NCBI RefSeq assembly: GCF_902506165.1
Contig: NZ_LR733817.1
Span: 1,720,255-1,784,254 of the forward strand
DNA length: 64,000 nt
Reading direction: 5' to 3'
Origin: Bosea sp. 29B
Lineage (GTDB): Bacteria; Pseudomonadota; Alphaproteobacteria; Rhizobiales; Beijerinckiaceae
The position numbers and the translations under genes were made by a program. Under the pieces are notes generated by a model. It was not told the origin of the DNA and ran no database searches. It worked only from the letters and a program-made list of their open reading frames with translations. Positions 53,151 through 61,562 of this stretch are shown piece after piece (within the stretch, counting starts at the first letter, position 1; each line of letters starts with the position of its first letter).

Positions 53151-54200
53151 TTATTTCCCGACGGCCTTGCGGCGCTCAGCTGGCTCCGCACCACGCCAGC
53201 CGAGGGCCGGCGCGATCAGCGTGACGAAGTCGGCGATGATCTGGCGGTAATCCACGATCGAGAAGTTGTAAGGCAGCTCCAGCCGCAGCGTATCGACCAG
53301 CGGCAGGACCGGATCAGCGGCGAGCCAGTCGACGATCTCGGCCGCCGTGCCGACGAGATCGGGCGTGAACAACGTCCGGCGCTCGCCTTGCGGCGCGAGC
53401 GTGCGCGCATGCCGGCTTTGCGCATAGTCGCGATAGCGTTGGCGCGTCGCTGCGTCGGCGCTGTCGAGCGGCACGATCACGCGGCCGACCGCGACCTTAG
53501 GCTCGTCCTCGCCACGCCAATGAGCGCGGAACGTCTCGATATGACGGCGCTGCGCCACAAAGAAATCGTCGGTCTCCTCACCGGTGTTGAGATTGCCGAC
53601 GAGCAGCTGGAAGCCGCTCTCGCCGGCCCAGCGAGCCGAGCGCAGCGAGCCGCCGCCATACCAGAGCCGCTGCCTCAGCCCCGGCGCATGGGGGCGCAGG
53701 CGCGGGCGATGCTCGCCGGCAGCTGAGGTGATGCGGCTGTCGGCATCGCCGAGCCAGTCGCCATCGAGATTCCTGGCGAGGCGGGCGACGCGGGCATGCG
53801 AGAAATCGTAAAGCCCCGGATCGGCATCGAAGAAGCGCTCGCCCAGGAGCTTGCCGAAAGGCGGCGGGCCGGCGCTCAGGCCGACATTGAGCCGCCCGCC
53901 GGAAAGCACGTCGACCAGCGACAGGTCCTCGGCCAGCCGGAATGGGTTCTCGTAGCCGATCTGGATCACGGCGGTGCCGAGCCCGATCCGGTTGGTGCGC
54001 TGGGATGCGGCCGCGAGGAAGGTCGCGGCAGAGGAGACGCCGGGTTCGAGATGGCGCTGGCGCACCCAGGCGCTGTCGAAGCCGAGCGCCTCGCCATGCT
54101 CGAAGAGCGCGAGCGTCTCTTCCAGCCCGGCGCGCGGATCGGCGTCGTCGTAATTGCCTGGAGTCAGGAAGGTGATGTGCCGGATGGCGAGCTTGGACAT
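53151..54200 (-). CDS. luciferase-like (LLM) flavin-dependent oxidoreductase
   Basis: A 349-residue FMNH2-dependent monooxygenase-type TIM barrel. The family pattern is in LALFEHGEALGFDSAWVRQRHLEPG, TNRIGLGTAVIQIGYENPFRLAEDLSLVDVLSGGRLNVGLS (about residues 70-110) and RLWYGGGSLRSARWAGESGFQLLVG. It is last in the minus-strand block with two other luciferase-like genes and a flavin reductase. Its exact substrate, probably an organosulfur or related compound, is unknown. Confidence 0.88.
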   Translation of the reverse strand: MSKLAIRHITFLTPGNYDDADPRAGLEETLALFEHGEALGFDSAWVRQRHLEPGVSSAATFLAAASQRTNRIGLGTAVIQIGYENPFRLAEDLSLVDVLSGGRLNVGLSAGPPPFGKLLGERFFDADPGLYDFSHARVARLARNLDGDWLGDADSRITSAAGEHRPRLRPHAPGLRQRLWYGGGSLRSARWAGESGFQLLVGNLNTGEETDDFFVAQRRHIETFRAHWRGEDEPKVAVGRVIVPLDSADAATRQRYRDYAQSRHARTLAPQGERRTLFTPDLVGTAAEIVDWLAADPVLPLVDTLRLELPYNFSIVDYRQIIADFVTLIAPALGWRGAEPAERRKAVGK

Positions 54201-54209
54201 GGCGCTTCT

Positions 54210-55151
54210 TCAGTATTTCGGCAGGCCGGGCGGGTTGGTCTCGGAGCGGTCGAGCGCCTCCTCCTCCAGGCCCCAGCGCACCAGCGATGCCCGGAACTTG
54301 CCGTTGGCGATCAGCCCGTTGGTGGCGACGGTCAGCGCATCGACCAGGCCGCTGCCCTTGCGGGTGGTGATCGCGACATCCGACTTCAGCGGCCAGCCGG
54401 CGCTGAGCGTGCCGACGCGCCTGATATCCTTGTCACGTGCCGCGATGAAGACGAGCTGGGCATGCGGCTGGACGATGACGTCGACACGGCCCGAGCGCAG
54501 CGCGACGAGGCGGCCAGCCTCGTCGTCGAAGAGCTGCAGCTCGATCGGCTTCAGGCCCGCAGCGACATTCTGCTTGCTCCATTCGACCAGAATGCGCTCC
54601 TGATTGGTGCCGCCGCCGACGCTGATCTTGAGGCCGGCGGCATCCTTCGGCTCGCTGATCTGCGTGACCCTGCTGTCGGCCCGGACGAAGAAGCCATGCA
54701 GGCCCTTGCGATAGGTCGAGAAGTCGAACTTCTCCTTGCGCTGCTCGGTCACGCCGACATTGGAAATGACCGCATCGTACTTGCCGGACGCCAGCCCGAG
54801 CGGCCAGTCGGCCCAGGCGATCGGCTGCAGGTCGAGCTTGAGCCCGAGACTGTCGGCGACCAGCTGGGCGAAATCGGCGTCGGCGCCGACCACGGTCCTG
54901 GCATCGGTGGCATAGGTCGCGAGCGGCGGCCTACCAGGGCTGACCGCCACGGTGAGCACACCGGGTGTCACGAATTTGAAGCCCTTCGGGATGGCGGCGA
55001 TCGCCTCCGGCTGCTTCTCGGCCCGGACTCTGCCGGGCTGTTCCGGCCCGAGATCGAACGGCGCCTGGGCCAAAGCCCGATCCTGCGTTTGGCCAAAGAC
55101 AGCCCAGCCACCGAGGAGAAGTGCCAGCATGGCACGCGCTCGCAACATCAT
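54210..55151 (-). CDS. polar amino-acid-type ABC transporter substrate-binding protein (copy 1)
   Basis: A 313-residue SBP family 3 receptor with a signal peptide (RARAMLALLLGGWAVFGQTQDRALA). Body marks are [58 protein letters not shown] and GGGTNQERILVEWSKQNV. It is closely similar along its whole length to the next gene, including the C-terminal R/E-TNPPGLP ending, so the pair is a tandem duplication. Both probably feed the fused permease/ATPase with related ligands. Confidence 0.92.
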   Translation of the reverse strand: MMLRARAMLALLLGGWAVFGQTQDRALAQAPFDLGPEQPGRVRAEKQPEAIAAIPKGFKFVTPGVLTVAVSPGRPPLATYATDARTVVGADADFAQLVADSLGLKLDLQPIAWADWPLGLASGKYDAVISNVGVTEQRKEKFDFSTYRKGLHGFFVRADSRVTQISEPKDAAGLKISVGGGTNQERILVEWSKQNVAAGLKPIELQLFDDEAGRLVALRSGRVDVIVQPHAQLVFIAARDKDIRRVGTLSAGWPLKSDVAITTRKGSGLVDALTVATNGLIANGKFRASLVRWGLEEEALDRSETNPPGLPKY

Positions 55152-55200
55152 TGTCTTCCGTCTTCTCTAATGGACTAGACCGCAACGACGCCCGCCGCCT

Positions 55201-56133
55201 TCACTTCGCCGGCAGGCCGGGCGGGTTGGTGCGCGACTGCTCGATCGCCTCGGCGGCGAGGTTCCAGCGCCCGAGCGCCTTGGCGTAGTTGCCGTTGCCG
55301 ATCTGGGCGTTGACGGCGTGGGCGATCGCCTCGGCAAGGCCGGCGCCCTTGCGGGTCGTCACCGCGATCTCGGCCAGCAGCGGCCAGCCGCCGGAGAAAT
55401 TGCCGGCGAGGCGGGTCTTGTTCTCCTGGGCCGCCTTGAAGCTGAGCAGCGCATTCGGGCCGAGATAGGCGTCGGCGCGGCCGGTCTCTAGCGCGAGATA
55501 GAGCACGACATCGTCGTCATAGTACTGGACCTCGGCCGGCTTCAGCCCGTCCTTCACGTTCTGCTCGTTCCAGCGCAGCAGGATCTGCTCCTGATTGGTG
55601 CCGGAGCCGACGATGATCTTGAGGCCGGCGATGTCGCGCGGCTCGCGGATCTGGATCTCGTTGTCCTTCTTCACATAGAAGCCGAGCAGGTCCTTGCGGT
55701 AGGTCGAGAAGTCGAACTTCTCCTTGCGCTGCTCGGTGACCGTGATGTTGGAGATCGCCGCATCGTATTTGCCGGAGGCGACGCCGAGCGGCCAGTCGGC
55801 CCAGGAGACCGGGACGATCTCGAGCTTGCGGCCGAGCGCATCGGCGACGAGCTGAGCGATATCGGGCTCGGAGCCGACGATGCTCTTGGTGTCGCTCGCA
55901 TAACCAGCGAAGGGCAACCGGCCGGTAGCGTTGGCGACAGTGAAGACGCCCTCCTTCACGAACTTGGCGTCCTTGCCGATCAGCTTGATCGCGGCGGCGT
56001 CGCGCTGCGCCCGCGGCCGGCCGGGCTGCTCGGGCGAAAGATCGATCGCCTGCTGGGCGAAGCCGAGCGAGGGGAGCAGCGCGCCAGCCGAGGCGGCGCC
56101 AAGAAGGGAGAGCGCATTGCGTCTGGTGATCAT
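55201..56133 (-). CDS. polar amino-acid-type ABC transporter substrate-binding protein (copy 2)
   Basis: A 310-residue SBP family 3 receptor, paralogue of its downstream neighbour. The N-terminus ([27 protein letters not shown]) has an RR pair and may be Tat-exported, unlike copy 1. Shared core: [41 protein letters not shown]. Ligand-contact segments differ between copies (for example [20 protein letters not shown] against LFDDEAGRLVALRSGRVDVI), so ligand range may differ. It directly follows the permease/ATPase gene. Confidence 0.92.
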
Positions 56134-56157
56134 GACTTGGCTCCTTGGAAACGAGAT

Positions 56158-57960
56158 TCAGAGGACCTTGGCGAGGAATTCGCGGGTGCGGGGATGGTCG
56201 GGCTCGGCGAGGACGCGGGCCGGCGGACCGACTTCGAGGATGCGGCCGGCTTCCATGAAGACGACCTCGTCGGCGACCTCGCGGGCAAAGCCGATCTCGT
56301 GGGTGACGATCACAAGCGTCGTGCCGGAGCGGGCGAGCTCCTTGATCACGTCGAGCACCTCGTTGACGAGCTCGGGGTCGAGCGCCGAGGTCGGTTCGTC
56401 GAAGAGCAGCACTTTGGGCTTCAAAGCGAGCGCCCGGGCGATGGCGACGCGCTGCTGCTGGCCGCCGGAGAGCTGGCGCGGATAGGCGTCGACCTTGTCG
56501 GCAAGGCCGACGCGGGCGAGCAGCTCGCGCGCCTCGGCCAGAGCCTGCTCGCGGCTGACACCGCGCACCGAAAGCGGGGCTTCGATGACGTTCTCGATCG
56601 CGGTGAGATGCGGGAACAGGTTGAAGCTCTGGAAGACCATGCCGACATCGACGCGGCGCTTCAGGATCTCGCGCTCCTTGAGCTCGTAGAGCGTGTCGCC
56701 GTCCTGGCGGTAGCCGATCAGCTCGCCGTCGATGGCGATGAAGCCCTCGTCGACGCGCTCGAGATGGTTGATCGAGCGCAGCAGCGTCGACTTGCCCGAG
56801 CCGGATTGACCTATGATCGCGGTGACGCTGCCCGGCCGCAGCGCCAGGCTGACATCGTCGAGCACCTTGAGCGGACCGAAGCTCTTCGAGATGTTGCTGA
56901 TGCGGATCTCGCCGCCGGCACGAGGCGACAAGCTCGCCAGCGAAGGAGCGACTGCGGCGGACGAACCCGTCTGTGCCAGCGCGGCCTCGGTACGGCGCGC
57001 CGCGGCGGCGTCACGTGAGCGGCTGAAGCGTGCCAGCACCAACCCGATCAGCGAGGGCGGCGGATTGCGCAGCGCGCCACGCGAGTAATAGCGCTCGATA
57101 TGGTGCTGGACGAAGGACAGCACGCTGAGGATGACGAGGTACCAAACCGTCGCCACCATCAGGAGCGGGATCACCTCGAGATTGCGCCGGTAGATGATCT
57201 GGATGGTGTAGAACAGCTCCGGCAGCGCCAGGATGTAGACTTGGGACGTGCCCTTCGCCAGCAGGATGATCTCGTTGAAGCCGTTGGGCAGGATGGTACG
57301 CATCGCCTGCGGCAGCACGATCCGCGAGAACTGGCGTCGTCGCGGCAGGCCGAGCGCGGCCGCAGCCTCGTGCTGGCCCTGGTCGACCGAGAGGATGCCG
57401 CCGCGCACGATCTCCGAGGAGAAGGCGCCGGCATGCAGGGTGAGCCCGAGCACCGCCGCGAAGAACGGCGTGATCAGCTGCGTCGTCGACCAGCTCGCGA
57501 AGGTGATCTCGGTGAAGGGAATGCCGAGCCAGACCGTCGAGTAGAGATAGCCGAGATTGTTGAGGATCAGCAGCAGCACGATCAGCGGGATCGAGCGGAA
57601 CAGCCAGACATAGGCCCAGGACAGCGAGGCCAGCAGTGGCGAACCCGAGACGCGCGCCAGGGCAAGGCCGGTGCCCAGCAAGAAGCCCAGCACCGTGCCG
57701 AACAGGGTCAGTAGCAGCGTGCGCGCCAGGCCCGCCAGCACCGGCTCGGAGAAGAACCATTCGGCGAAGACGTCCCAGCCCCAGCGCGGGTTGGAAAGGA
57801 CCGAATTCGCGACCGCGAAGATGACGACGACCGCGAAGGCTGTGCCGATCGCGCGGGCCGGATAACGTGCCGGCACGATACGGTAGCGGCTGAAATCGCG
57901 GGTCGGCGGAGTGCTATCGGCGCGCGTCGGCAGGCCCGCGAAATCGCTGGCGAGGCTCAT
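56158..57960 (-). CDS. fused amino-acid ABC transporter permease and ATP-binding protein
   Basis: A 600-residue fusion. Residues 1 to about 320 form a HisM/GlnP-type permease ([68 protein letters not shown] is the coupling loop). From about 360 on there is a GlnQ-type ATPase: [68 protein letters not shown] and [13 protein letters not shown]. Such fusions are known in rhizobia and relatives. Start is the ATG at 57960, with the first helix about 35 residues in. It serves the tandem receptors downstream. Confidence 0.93.
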
Positions 57961-58001
57961 GGCTGGGACTCGTTTTCTGTTTGCTGGGGTAAGCGGCGCG
58001 A

Positions 58002-58535
58002 TCAGGCCGCGCTGGCAGGCAATTGCTCGGCCGGCGGCCGCAGCGTGTAGGCCGCGACAGCAAGATCCTTCTCGAAGGCGAGCTTCTTGTAGACCTCCGG
58101 ATCGACAGCGGGGTCGAAAAGCGGCGTGTAGCCGGTGCTGAGGTAGAGGTCCCTCGCCTCGGGCTGGCGAAAGCCCGTGGTCAGGAAGATCTTGCCATAG
58201 CCCTGGCGCGCAGCCTGCGCCTCCAGCTCCTCGACGACGCGGCGGGCCAGGCCCTGGCGACGGAAGGCGCTGTCGGTCCACATCCGCTTCAGCTCGGCGG
58301 TCTGCGCGTCATAGCGCTTGAAGGCACCGCCGGCGATGGCGCGGCCATCACGCAACAGCAGGACGAAATTGCCTTCGGGCGGCGCGAACAGCGAAGCCGG
58401 ATAACGGCTCATCTCGGCGCCGGGCGGCTCGCCGAAATAGCTGCCGTAGCGGGTGGCGTACTCCCAGGTGAGCTGCTCGACCAAAGGCTGCGCGAGCGGA
58501 TCGAGCGGGGTGGTGTAGAGGAACTGGTCGGACAT
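58002..58535 (-). CDS. GNAT-family N-acetyltransferase
   Basis: A 177-residue acetyl-CoA-dependent acetyltransferase. The acetyl-CoA loop is RRQGLARRVVEELEAQAARQGY (about residues 94-115), after TAELKRMWTDSAF on the central strand, with LYLSTGYTPL near the C-terminus. The position, between an amino-acid importer and luciferase-like monooxygenases, recalls SnaA of the Bacillus S-alkyl-cysteine operon, which acetylates the imported amino acid before oxidation. That assignment is from context only. Confidence 0.87.
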   Translation of the reverse strand: MSDQFLYTTPLDPLAQPLVEQLTWEYATRYGSYFGEPPGAEMSRYPASLFAPPEGNFVLLLRDGRAIAGGAFKRYDAQTAELKRMWTDSAFRRQGLARRVVEELEAQAARQGYGKIFLTTGFRQPEARDLYLSTGYTPLFDPAVDPEVYKKLAFEKDLAVAAYTLRPPAEQLPASAA

Positions 58536-58585
58536 GGGACAGCCTCTCGGATCGCTGGGTTCTGAAAACGGGTTCTGCGGAGCTT

Positions 58586-59929
58586 TCAGCCGGCCTTGCG
58601 CGGCACGGATGAAGGAGCTGGACGCGCATAGCGGCTCTCGCGGCGCGGCAGGCCGAGATGGTCGCGCAGCGTCTCCCCCGGCAGGTTGCGGTCGTAGACG
58701 CCGCGCGCCTCCAGCTCCGGGATGACCAGCTCGACGAAATCATCCAGGCCCTGGCCGATCACCGGGAAGCCGAGGATGAAGCCGTCCGCCGCCTGCTTCT
58801 CGACGCGCTCGATCATGATATCGGCGATCTCCTTGGTGGAGCCGATCAGGTCAGCGCGCGGTGTCGCCGCCTCCAGTGCCGCCTCGCGCAGGGTCTGGCG
58901 CTTCAGGGCGGCGGTGCGCTTGATCCGATCGGTGGTCGAGCGGAAGCTGTTCTTGCCGATATCGCCGAGCTCCGGGAAGGGCGCATCGAGCGGATAGGCG
59001 CTGAAGTCGTGATGGTCGAAATAGCGGCCGAGATAGGCGAGCGCCTCGTCGATCGAGACGAGATCGCGGATCGCCTGGTACTTGTCCTCGGCCTCCTTGC
59101 GGGTGCGCCCGACGATCGGCCCGGCGCTCGGGAAGATCTTGACGTCGTCGGCGAGCCGCCCCTGCGCGATCGCACTGGTCTTGATGCTGCGGTAGAAGGC
59201 CTGGCCCTCCTCCAGCGAGACGTGGTTGGCGAAGACCGCATCGGCATGGCGGCCGGCGAGGCCGATGCCGGCATCGGAAGCCCCGGCCTGGAACAGCACC
59301 GGCTGGCCCTGTGGCGAGCGCTGGATGTTGAGCGGACCCTCGACCTGGAAGAAGCGGCCCTTGTAGCCGAGCGTGTGCAGCTTCTCGCGATCGAAGAAGC
59401 GGCCGGCCTTGCGGTCGCGGACGAAGGCGTCGTCGTCCCAGGAATCCCAGAGGCCCTTGGCGATGTCGAGATATTCATGCGCGATCTCGTAGCGCAGCGA
59501 GTGCTCGGGATGCGGACGGCCATAGTTGCGGCCCGAGCCTTCCAGCGGCGAGGTCACCGCATTCCAGCCCGCCCGCCCGCCAATTCGCCTCGCTCGACCT
59601 GATCTCGGGCGGGCGATGGTGAAGGGGTCGCTGTAGGAGGTCGAGACCGTGCCGACGAGGCCAAGCTTATTCGTCGCCGTCGCCAGCGCCGAGAGGATGG
59701 TCAGCGGCTCGAAGCGGTTGAGGAAATGCGGGATCGACTTCTCGTTGATGTAGAGCCCATCGGCGACGAAGGCGAAGGCGATGCCGTTTTCCTCGGCCTT
59801 GCGGGCGTTGCGGATGAAGAAGTCGAGATTGACGCTGGCATCGGCCGGATTGCTCGGATGGCGCCAGGCATTCATGTGGCTGCCGGGGCCCTGCAGCATC
59901 AGGCCGAAGGTGAGACGGGTCTTGCTCAT
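58586..59929 (-). CDS. NtaA/SnaA/DszA-family flavin monooxygenase with a flipped segment
   Basis: A 447-residue FMNH2-dependent monooxygenase. Family marks are LTFGLMLQGPGSHMNAWRHP at the N-terminus, AFAFVADGLYINEKS, GRAGWNAVTSPLEGSGRNYGR, YEIAHEYLDIAKGLWDSWDDDA and PVLFQAGASDAGIGLAGRHADAVFA. Residues 108-116 read PRSGRARRI where the family has a motif of the form QFASLDLIS. The missing motif is encoded on the opposite strand of the same bases, between inverted repeats (see 59575-59614). The frame stays open, but the altered stretch lies next to the flavin/active-site region, so this allele may be inactive. Start is the ATG after GGAGACTTCC. Confidence 0.9.
   Translation of the reverse strand: MSKTRLTFGLMLQGPGSHMNAWRHPSNPADASVNLDFFIRNARKAEENGIAFAFVADGLYINEKSIPHFLNRFEPLTILSALATATNKLGLVGTVSTSYSDPFTIARPRSGRARRIGGRAGWNAVTSPLEGSGRNYGRPHPEHSLRYEIAHEYLDIAKGLWDSWDDDAFVRDRKAGRFFDREKLHTLGYKGRFFQVEGPLNIQRSPQGQPVLFQAGASDAGIGLAGRHADAVFANHVSLEEGQAFYRSIKTSAIAQGRLADDVKIFPSAGPIVGRTRKEAEDKYQAIRDLVSIDEALAYLGRYFDHHDFSAYPLDAPFPELGDIGKNSFRSTTDRIKRTAALKRQTLREAALEAATPRADLIGSTKEIADIMIERVEKQAADGFILGFPVIGQGLDDFVELVIPELEARGVYDRNLPGETLRDHLGLPRRESRYARPAPSSVPRKAG
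59575..59614. repeat. inverted-repeat-bounded segment in apparent reverse orientation
   Basis: GCCCGCC (59575-59581) and GGCGGGC (59608-59614) are perfect 7-bp inverted repeats bounding a 26-base spacer; both arms extend into (GCCC)n-like repeats. Read on the plus strand the spacer encodes the motif QFASLDLIS expected in the minus-strand monooxygenase. Reversing exactly these 40 bases restores ARQFASLDLISGGRAGWN in frame on the minus strand with no net length change. This is direct evidence of an inversion relative to the family's usual sequence. Confidence 0.85.
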
Positions 59930-59946
59930 GGAAGTCTCCTGTCGGC

Positions 59947-60951
59947 TCAAGCAGCGAGCGCCGGCGCATCGCCAGCGAGCAGCGTGATCGAGGCGAGGCG
60001 CTGGGCAGTCGCCGCAGCCGGCGTGTCGATGACAAATTCGGTGATGCCGAAGCGGGCGGAGAGCGCATTGAGCTCGCGCCGAATGTCTTCGGCGGTTCCG
60101 GCGAGGATGCTCGGACGGCGGATCTCGGTGGTGTAGGAGGCAGCGCCGGCCTGGCGCGCGAATTCGGCGGCCTGTTCCTCGCTGCCGAGATTGACGCTCT
60201 GGCCGGTGTCGAGCGTCAGCCTGACGACGCGCAGCGGGTCGGTCAGCGCCCTCGCCTCCTCGGCCGTCGCGGCAGCGAGGGCAGCGAGGCCGAACAGCGG
60301 TGGCTGCTTGGCTCCGGCCTTTGAATGGGCATCGAGACTGGCTTCGATCGCCTTCGGATCGCCGTTGAGCTGGCCGGCGAAGACGAAGCGCCAGCCGCGC
60401 TCGGCGGCGAGCCGGGCGCTGTCCGGGCTGGCGCCGAGCAGGAAGCGCTCCACTGGCGCAGGCGGCTTCGGCAGGGCCTGCGCGCCGGCAAGCGGATCAC
60501 CCGCATCGAGCGAACCCGAAAGGAAGCCGTCGAGCTCCGCCAGCAGCACGTCGAAGGAGCGGGCGCCCTTGGGATCGTGCTGGACCCGCAGCGCCCGGGT
60601 CGAGAGCGGCAGGCCGCCCGGCGCCTTGCCGATGCCGAGATCGATCCGGTCCGGCGCCAGCGCCGCGAGCAGGTTGAAGGTCTCGGCAACCTTGTAGGGG
60701 CTGTAGTGCTGCAAGAGCACGCCGCCGGAACCGATGCGGATGCGGCGGGTGCGAGCGACCAGATGCGCCACCACGATTTCAGGCGCCGAGCTGGCGAGGC
60801 CGGGAAAGCCGTGATGCTCGGCGAGCCAGAAGCGGCGATAGCCCAGTCGCTCGGCCGCCTGCGCCAGAGCGATCGTGCGCTGCAGGGCATCGACAGCGCT
60901 CTCGCCGTCGAGGATCGGGCTCTTGTCGAGCAGGCTGAGGGAATAGGCCAT
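59947..60951 (-). CDS. luciferase-like monooxygenase (MsnO8-type)
   Basis: A 334-residue LLM enzyme of the group exemplified by LLDKSPILDGESAVDALQRTIALAQAAERLGYRRFWLAEHHG at the N-terminus. Further marks are RIRIGSGGVLLQHYSPYKVAETFNLLAALAPDRIDLGIGKAPGG (about residues 75-118) and FLLGASPDSARLAAERGW. The ATG at 60951 begins where family similarity begins; the 31 codons before it are a shadow. It lies between the flavin reductase and the DszA-like gene, as CmoO does in the Bacillus operon. Confidence 0.88.
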   Translation of the reverse strand: MAYSLSLLDKSPILDGESAVDALQRTIALAQAAERLGYRRFWLAEHHGFPGLASSAPEIVVAHLVARTRRIRIGSGGVLLQHYSPYKVAETFNLLAALAPDRIDLGIGKAPGGLPLSTRALRVQHDPKGARSFDVLLAELDGFLSGSLDAGDPLAGAQALPKPPAPVERFLLGASPDSARLAAERGWRFVFAGQLNGDPKAIEASLDAHSKAGAKQPPLFGLAALAAATAEEARALTDPLRVVRLTLDTGQSVNLGSEEQAAEFARQAGAASYTTEIRRPSILAGTAEDIRRELNALSARFGITEFVIDTPAAATAQRLASITLLAGDAPALAA

Positions 60952-60968
60952 GAGGTTTCTCGCCAGGG

Positions 60969-61562
60969 TCAGATGCCGCGCAGGCCGCAGGCCGTGCGCG
61001 CCTCCTCGGCCATCCAGCCGAGGCGTTCGTAATCGCCGCGCCAATAGACGAGTGCCGCATCGTCGCCGCCGAGCCGGACCTCGCGCACCCGGCCGATGAC
61101 GATGGCGTGCGAATGCCGCTCGATCAGCTCCTCGACCTCGCAGTCGAGCGCAGCCAAAGCGCCTTCGAGCAGCGGCGCACCGGTGACGCCTTGCGTCCAG
61201 TTCGCCCCGGCATAACGCGCCTCGCCCTTCTCGCCGGCACGGCCGGCGAAGCGGTCGGCGATCTGCTTCTGCGTCGCGTTGAGGAAGTTGACGCCGAAGC
61301 TGCGATGGCGGGCGAGCACCGGAAAGCTCGACGAGCTCAGATTGAGCCCGAACATCACCGTCGGCGGCTCGGCCGAGAGCGAGGACAGCGAGGTGACAGT
61401 GAGGCCGGTACGATCGACTCCCTGCCCGGCCGTGATCACGCTGACGCCGCCGGCGAGATGGCGCAGCGCCGATCGGAAGTTCGGTGCCTCGGCTTGCGCC
61501 GACGCGGCGCGGCCGAACGAGCGGGAGGCGGATGCTGGAGTGACGAGCGAGACGACGGTCAT
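60969..61562 (-). CDS. flavin reductase (FMN-binding split-barrel, DIM6/NTAB family)
   Basis: A 197-residue flavin:NAD(P)H oxidoreductase, expected to supply FMNH2 to the luciferase-like monooxygenases downstream. Family marks are FRSALRHLAGGVSVITAG, TGLTVTSLSSLSAEPPTVMFGLNLSSSSFPVLARHRSFGVNFL, and the C-terminal HAIVIGRVREVRLGGDDAALVYWRGDYERL. It is the first gene of the minus-strand operon. Its upstream region has palindromes and a possible promoter. Confidence 0.9.
   Translation of the reverse strand: MTVVSLVTPASASRSFGRAASAQAEAPNFRSALRHLAGGVSVITAGQGVDRTGLTVTSLSSLSAEPPTVMFGLNLSSSSFPVLARHRSFGVNFLNATQKQIADRFAGRAGEKGEARYAGANWTQGVTGAPLLEGALAALDCEVEELIERHSHAIVIGRVREVRLGGDDAALVYWRGDYERLGWMAEEARTACGLRGI

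Follow-up and report, generated by a model that had tools for sequence, protein, structure and literature searches.

A private in-frame microinversion in a monooxygenase gene of Bosea sp. 29B, probably left by a replicative template switch

The window, a stretch of 64,000 nucleotides from Bosea sp. 29B, contains a monooxygenase gene in which a short segment of coding sequence is inverted in place. The inversion is absent from the examined relatives, it lies between inverted-repeat arms that are longer than theirs, and it is the lone event of its kind in the aligned sequence. The likely origin, in our view, is one recent event in which replication switched template between short inverted repeats and so flipped the segment in place. 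The inversion is most likely a bacterial case of a kind of mutation that is already known, with a candidate trigger that can be tested; its presence in living cells and its fixation in the strain are presumed. The features on which the analysis turns are collected in Table 1.

Table 1. Positions (in the window) of the monooxygenase gene, the inverted block and the flanking repeats
Feature	Position	Strand	Description
NtaA/DmoA-family FMN-dependent monooxygenase gene	58586..59929	-	447 aa from ATG at 59929; frame open throughout
Inverted block, widest placement	59574..59615	-	opposite-strand match in 29/29 full-length genus orthologs; 59575-59614 and narrower symmetric placements equivalent
Third base of the Arg codon in GGR	59573	-	just outside the block; unlike nine nearest relatives; completes a GGGC run in the opposite orientation
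Base expected from a four-point template switch, not from clean inversion of nearest-relative-like sequence	59580	-	
Inverted-repeat arm CGCCCGCCCG (+ strand)	59570..59579	.	perfect, 10 nt
Inverted-repeat arm CGGGCGGGCG (+ strand)	59606..59615	.	perfect, 10 nt
Spacer between the 10-nt arms	59580..59605	.	26 nt; + strand carries family-like residues

An inverted block seen in a single genome

The encoded protein matched the TIGR03860 (NtaA/DmoA) profile with 476.1 bits against a curated cut-off of 279.7, in agreement with the DszA/NtaA family assignment made in a preliminary description of this DNA, and it also matched PF00296. With a score so far above the cut-off despite nine swapped residues, gene calling and annotation would probably accept the gene as intact. 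In the middle of the protein, however, the minus-strand translation reads TIAR-PRSGRARRI-GGRAGWN where the nearest relatives read TIAR-QFASLDLIS-GGRAGWN. The former reading had been given in the preliminary description, and the bases and the frame proved correct when rechecked; the plus strand of the same bases had been said to encode QFASLDLIS, and family-like residues were indeed found on that strand of the spacer.

We took a comparative approach to evaluate the orientation of this segment among relatives. Matches were obtained in 57 of the 67 genomes of the genus that were searched, the window's own included, with a sharp gap between 30 full-length orthologs (own gene included; at least 887 bits) and partial matches (at most 191 bits), and all 29 other full-length orthologs formed the comparison set. 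Over the block, the coding strand is the reverse complement of the segment in each of the 29, with the same length. Accordingly, the full-length match of every one of them contained, at the block, a short opposite-strand match of 31-43 nt with 81-98% identity; all 29 carry the family-like orientation and none is flipped. The protein search covered about 5.8 billion proteins, from which 8000 candidates were scored and 2710 passed a threshold of 1e-150. The best 120 of these 2710 were inspected; all had an ARQF or ARQL motif, none was flipped, and the named matches among them at 85-86% identity were mostly from Bosea. The closest of these 120 (P0002, a cluster of 105 member sequences compared as one entry) agrees with the window's protein at 427 of 446 positions, the inverted residues making up nine of the 19 differences.

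These comparisons bear out an in-frame micro-inversion that leaves the length unchanged, as originally proposed, and the family motif that had been given as TIARQFASLDxISGGRAGWN (29/29 genus orthologs and the best 120 of 2710 proteins are family-like). The comparison with close relatives that had been suggested at the same time showed the flipped form in none of the 29 orthologs, and the possibility that PRSGRARRI is simply normal for the family is contradicted by the ARQF or ARQL of the best 120 of 2710 proteins. Chance had been called an implausible source of the wrong-strand residues, and we concur: four relatives (L009, L014, L015 and L016) match the block on the wrong strand over 34 nt without a mismatch, and scans of aligned sequence, given below, yielded no second block.

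The best-fitting relative was L015, an ortholog from genome G066. Over 90 nt, 25 mismatches to it remained in a linear alignment, three under a clean inversion and two under a four-point template-switch model, which copies 34 nt without a mismatch. Two of the three residual differences from L015 have G in place of C at the arms, at 59580 and 59573 (coding strand), and these bases set the genome apart from all nine of its nearest relatives (L007-L015); the base at 59580 is shared with L028-L030 and that at 59573 with L018 and L034. The four-point model thus beats the clean inversion by a single base, since it explains the base at 59580 without an extra mutation. This one base of evidence is not decisive, and an earlier synonymous change would account for it equally well, the same base being present in L028-L030. 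An exact flip of 59575-59614 had been put forward and is a valid placement, but it is one of several equivalents because the flanking repeats make the exact ends of the block undecidable. The open frame after the flip is unremarkable because 963 of the 1299 possible 42-nt inversions within the gene produce no stop codon.

Flanking arms and the origin of the inversion

Perfect repeats bound the block, as had been noted, but the arms extend beyond the GCCCGCC/GGCGGGC first recognized. Perfect arms flanking the segment reach no more than 5 nt in 12 of the 29 relatives, 6 nt in another 14 and 7 nt in the other three, and their sequence varies; among these relatives the repeat has not been conserved. 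The difference between 10 nt in this genome and 5-7 nt in the relatives may stem from the same event. Sequence of this kind (67% G+C) does not make such 10-nt repeats rare: 10-nt arms lying 20-40 nt apart began at 75 positions in 400 kb, compared with 52 in one first-order Markov simulation. The hairpin that the arms can form was evaluated by folding. As found, the coding strand (61 nt) gave -16.7 kcal/mol (z = -2.0; 9 of 200 shuffles folded as well) and the other strand (61 nt) -15.2 kcal/mol (z = -1.63; 13 of 200), and the fold in a 111-nt context was unremarkable (z = -0.38; 65 of 200 shuffles as good).

In a template switch, the growing strand would leave its own template within one GCCCG-type arm during synthesis, be extended backwards over the spacer on the complementary strand and rejoin its template via the other arm. 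The outcome would be a length-neutral inversion, flanked by arms that match each other better than the arms of relatives do, in which nine conserved residues (QFASLDLIS in relatives) become PRSGRARRI. We infer both this mechanism and the fixation of its product in the strain. Among the three origins listed in the preliminary description (a reversible switch, a fixed template-switch inversion and an assembly artefact), the template-switch inversion gives the best fit to the orthologs, the model comparison and the arms. One replication error can then replace nine adjacent conserved residues with frame and length untouched, and the mutation clusters left by such events can mimic rapid protein evolution.

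Related events are described in eukaryotes. In yeast genes, template switching homogenises arms and inverts spacers (PMC8604942), and the present case is like the spacer inversions reported there in that it lies in coding sequence, is flanked by short inverted repeats and has its spacer inverted in place; in that yeast set, the arms also became more alike in one of ten genes. It differs in its bacterial host, its 26-nt spacer and its nine residues, the yeast spacers described being 2-5 bp with no more than five residues (PMC8604942), and the longer spacer is a point against template switching. Between human and chimpanzee, PMC8755829 reports microinversions of 17-33 nt, all of them with inverted repeats of 3-75 nt on either side. 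These are of similar size, reverse-complemented in place and bounded by inverted repeats, whereas here the region is conserved bacterial coding sequence and the arms are longer than those of relatives. The loop of a short hairpin also flips in the small inversions of chloroplast genomes (5-50 bp, with repeats of 11-24 bp; Kim and Lee 2005, cited in PMC12928735), which that account has as widespread in land plants, unlike the one event seen here, absent from the 29 orthologs compared.

Template switching is held in PMC8755829 to make imperfect repeats perfect, yet the same source argues that short or imperfect repeats, the type found in the 29 relatives compared here, are hard for it to use. 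It proposes for microinversions with such repeats other repair routes, for example microhomology-mediated break-induced replication inside the segment, and the 5-7 nt arms of the relatives would suit a real inversion made in this way. Perfect arms that are longer than those of relatives are predicted more directly by template switching, and we consider another repair route very improbable; the product alone is not able to separate the two.

The segment might instead be a reversible intragenic switch, turning the enzyme on and off through a site-specific recombinase or through frequent template switching without one. Intragenic invertons, which Chanin and colleagues are said to have described in 2024 in a study cited by PMC11868660, reportedly consist of inverted repeats inside a gene whose flip recodes the protein without a frameshift. 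The present gene is like them in both respects, with perfect 10-nt arms and a frame kept in both orientations; it departs from them in having no nearby integrase- or resolvase-family match, no conserved repeats and no sign of both orientations. Integrase- and resolvase-family genes are present elsewhere in the genome, but searches for PF00589 and PF00239, the two recombinase families considered, returned no match in the window; the closest match lies at a distance of about 295 kb for the former (phage-integrase-type) and about 693 kb for the latter (resolvase-type). The inverton definition given in PMC11892184 calls for flanking inverted repeats of 10-40 nt, so that our arms stand at the lower limit of this range, and in the yeast set spacers were inverted only where arms exceeded 9 bp, with some sites flipping repeatedly (PMC8604942). 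By analogy with yeast template switching, the 10-nt arms could flip again. Against a switch, the arms are conserved in 0 of 29 relatives, a 10-nt repeat is by itself not special given the counts above, and neither the 29 orthologs nor the best 120 of 2710 proteins included a flipped form. In addition, segments below 33 bp have been argued to be too short for the DNA looping of recombination (PMC8755829), the present gene having a 26-nt spacer and a block of at most 42 nt. With arms that are not conserved, no match in the window to either recombinase family searched and no flipped form among the relatives examined, the switch suggested in the preliminary description is not supported, and we consider it quite unlikely.

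Recency, assembly quality and further flipped blocks

Outside the block, private codon changes of the gene numbered four synonymous and two nonsynonymous, ten relatives together having 76 and 11 (Fisher p = 0.20). The gene thus has no significant relaxation in its codon changes outside the block, on small counts, and the lack of visible decay implies that the event is either recent or not real. If not real, it would be an assembly or library artefact, a chimera formed by fold-back at the GC-rich hairpin having found its way into the consensus. Template switching by polymerases can also occur in vitro, and both this and the GC-rich hairpin with its 10-nt arms lend the artefact some credit, as does the undecayed remainder of the gene. 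We also counted 94 indels private to the window's genome (G000) over 88,149 shared bases; 74 of these are not multiples of three, two of them arising from the inversion itself, compared with 19 such indels in genome G022 and 30 in G066. Of the three genomes, G000 is the most divergent by a small margin.

The general quality of the assembly speaks otherwise. It comprises seven contigs (one of 6,325,261 bases and six small ones) totalling 6.33 Mb, with 100% completeness and 0.72% contamination. No frameshift was seen in any of the 87 scorable conserved ORFs in a 400-kb region of G000, nor in the 79 scored in G022 or the 80 in G066, in a test that leaves out ORFs with partial matches only and no frameshift signature. 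A rare chimera could moreover have entered the consensus only by dominating the reads, and no second wrong-strand block was present in the aligned sequence. We rate an artefact as unlikely. Short private indels are in excess at C1:1700832-1827839 of G000, many of them, by eye, in compensating pairs within variable stretches.

The scan for wrong-strand blocks was sensitive to blocks of at least 12-20 nt with a poor direct match and an offset of up to 30. Aligned to G022 (140,648 bases) and to G066 (128,343 bases), G000 contained one block in each case, that of the monooxygenase gene, and none occurred between G022 and G066 in 475,167 aligned bases. The G000 figures refer to the aligned part, most of the 800 kb examined having no alignment. 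Genome-wide inverton activity was rejected at this sensitivity, the aligned G000 sequence holding a single event. Flips of the same site in other genomes were also considered: a scan of genome contigs for the flipped motif, using a pattern with one codon-level form and possibly omitting the window's own genome, returned 11 stretches. These were rejected as chance matches, since no family member emerged when their six-frame translations were searched with a profile.

A candidate trigger, the enzyme and its neighbourhood

Read in the opposite orientation, the widest block together with the private base at 59573 gives (GGGC)4, or G3N1G3N1G3N1G3, a tight G-quadruplex motif. The general form of this motif was found neither in the 400 kb examined from each of G000, G022 and G066, nor in three 400-kb Markov simulations, nor within the 90-nt segment of any of the 29 orthologs. 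The exact run does not occur anywhere in G000 as sequenced and is present in four of the 67 genus genomes; the reversed pattern, which served as a control, is present in five of the 67. The run is rare, yet not unusually so for its own composition. Quadruplexes with very short loops are those reported to cause replication-dependent instability (PMC8472537). A possible though doubtful scenario is that a synonymous change completed (GGGC)4, with its one-base loops, in the coding sequence, and that replication then stalled and switched template. The switch would have destroyed the motif and left longer arms, making this a self-removing fragile site that would now be able to flip back without a recombinase. 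The base at 59573 may equally have changed during or after the event, and the lead, which was found post hoc and comes from the motif by itself, may point to a trigger. If true, it would provide a concrete and testable trigger for microinversions in GC-rich bacteria.

For the enzyme, the inverted residues are likely to matter. Q108, D113 and S116 (P0002 numbering) are invariant in a 34-row alignment, and all three are missing from the flipped protein, as is the conserved RQ(F/L)..LD..S stretch before GGRAGWN. This stretch reads RQFASLDLIS in the PDB relative 3sdo and RQLMSLDHIS in the PDB relative 1tvl (YtnJ). Because the replaced residues are invariant, we infer from sequence a loss of activity, and the inversion has likely disabled one copy of the enzyme. 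Two other places in the genome, at weak paralog matches, fit the pattern in its family orientation.

The neighbours of the gene encode an acetyltransferase, an ABC permease-ATPase fusion, an MsnO8-type luciferase-like oxidoreductase and a flavin reductase. They form part of a minus-strand cluster at 53151-61562 of luciferase-like oxidoreductase, flavin reductase, acetyltransferase and ABC transporter genes, assigned by family search over 56158-61562 and by eye over 53151-56133. We take this gene set to resemble sulfur-compound salvage operons. Within it, at 56158-57960 on the minus strand, the ABC permease and ATPase domains share one reading frame in an apparent fusion.
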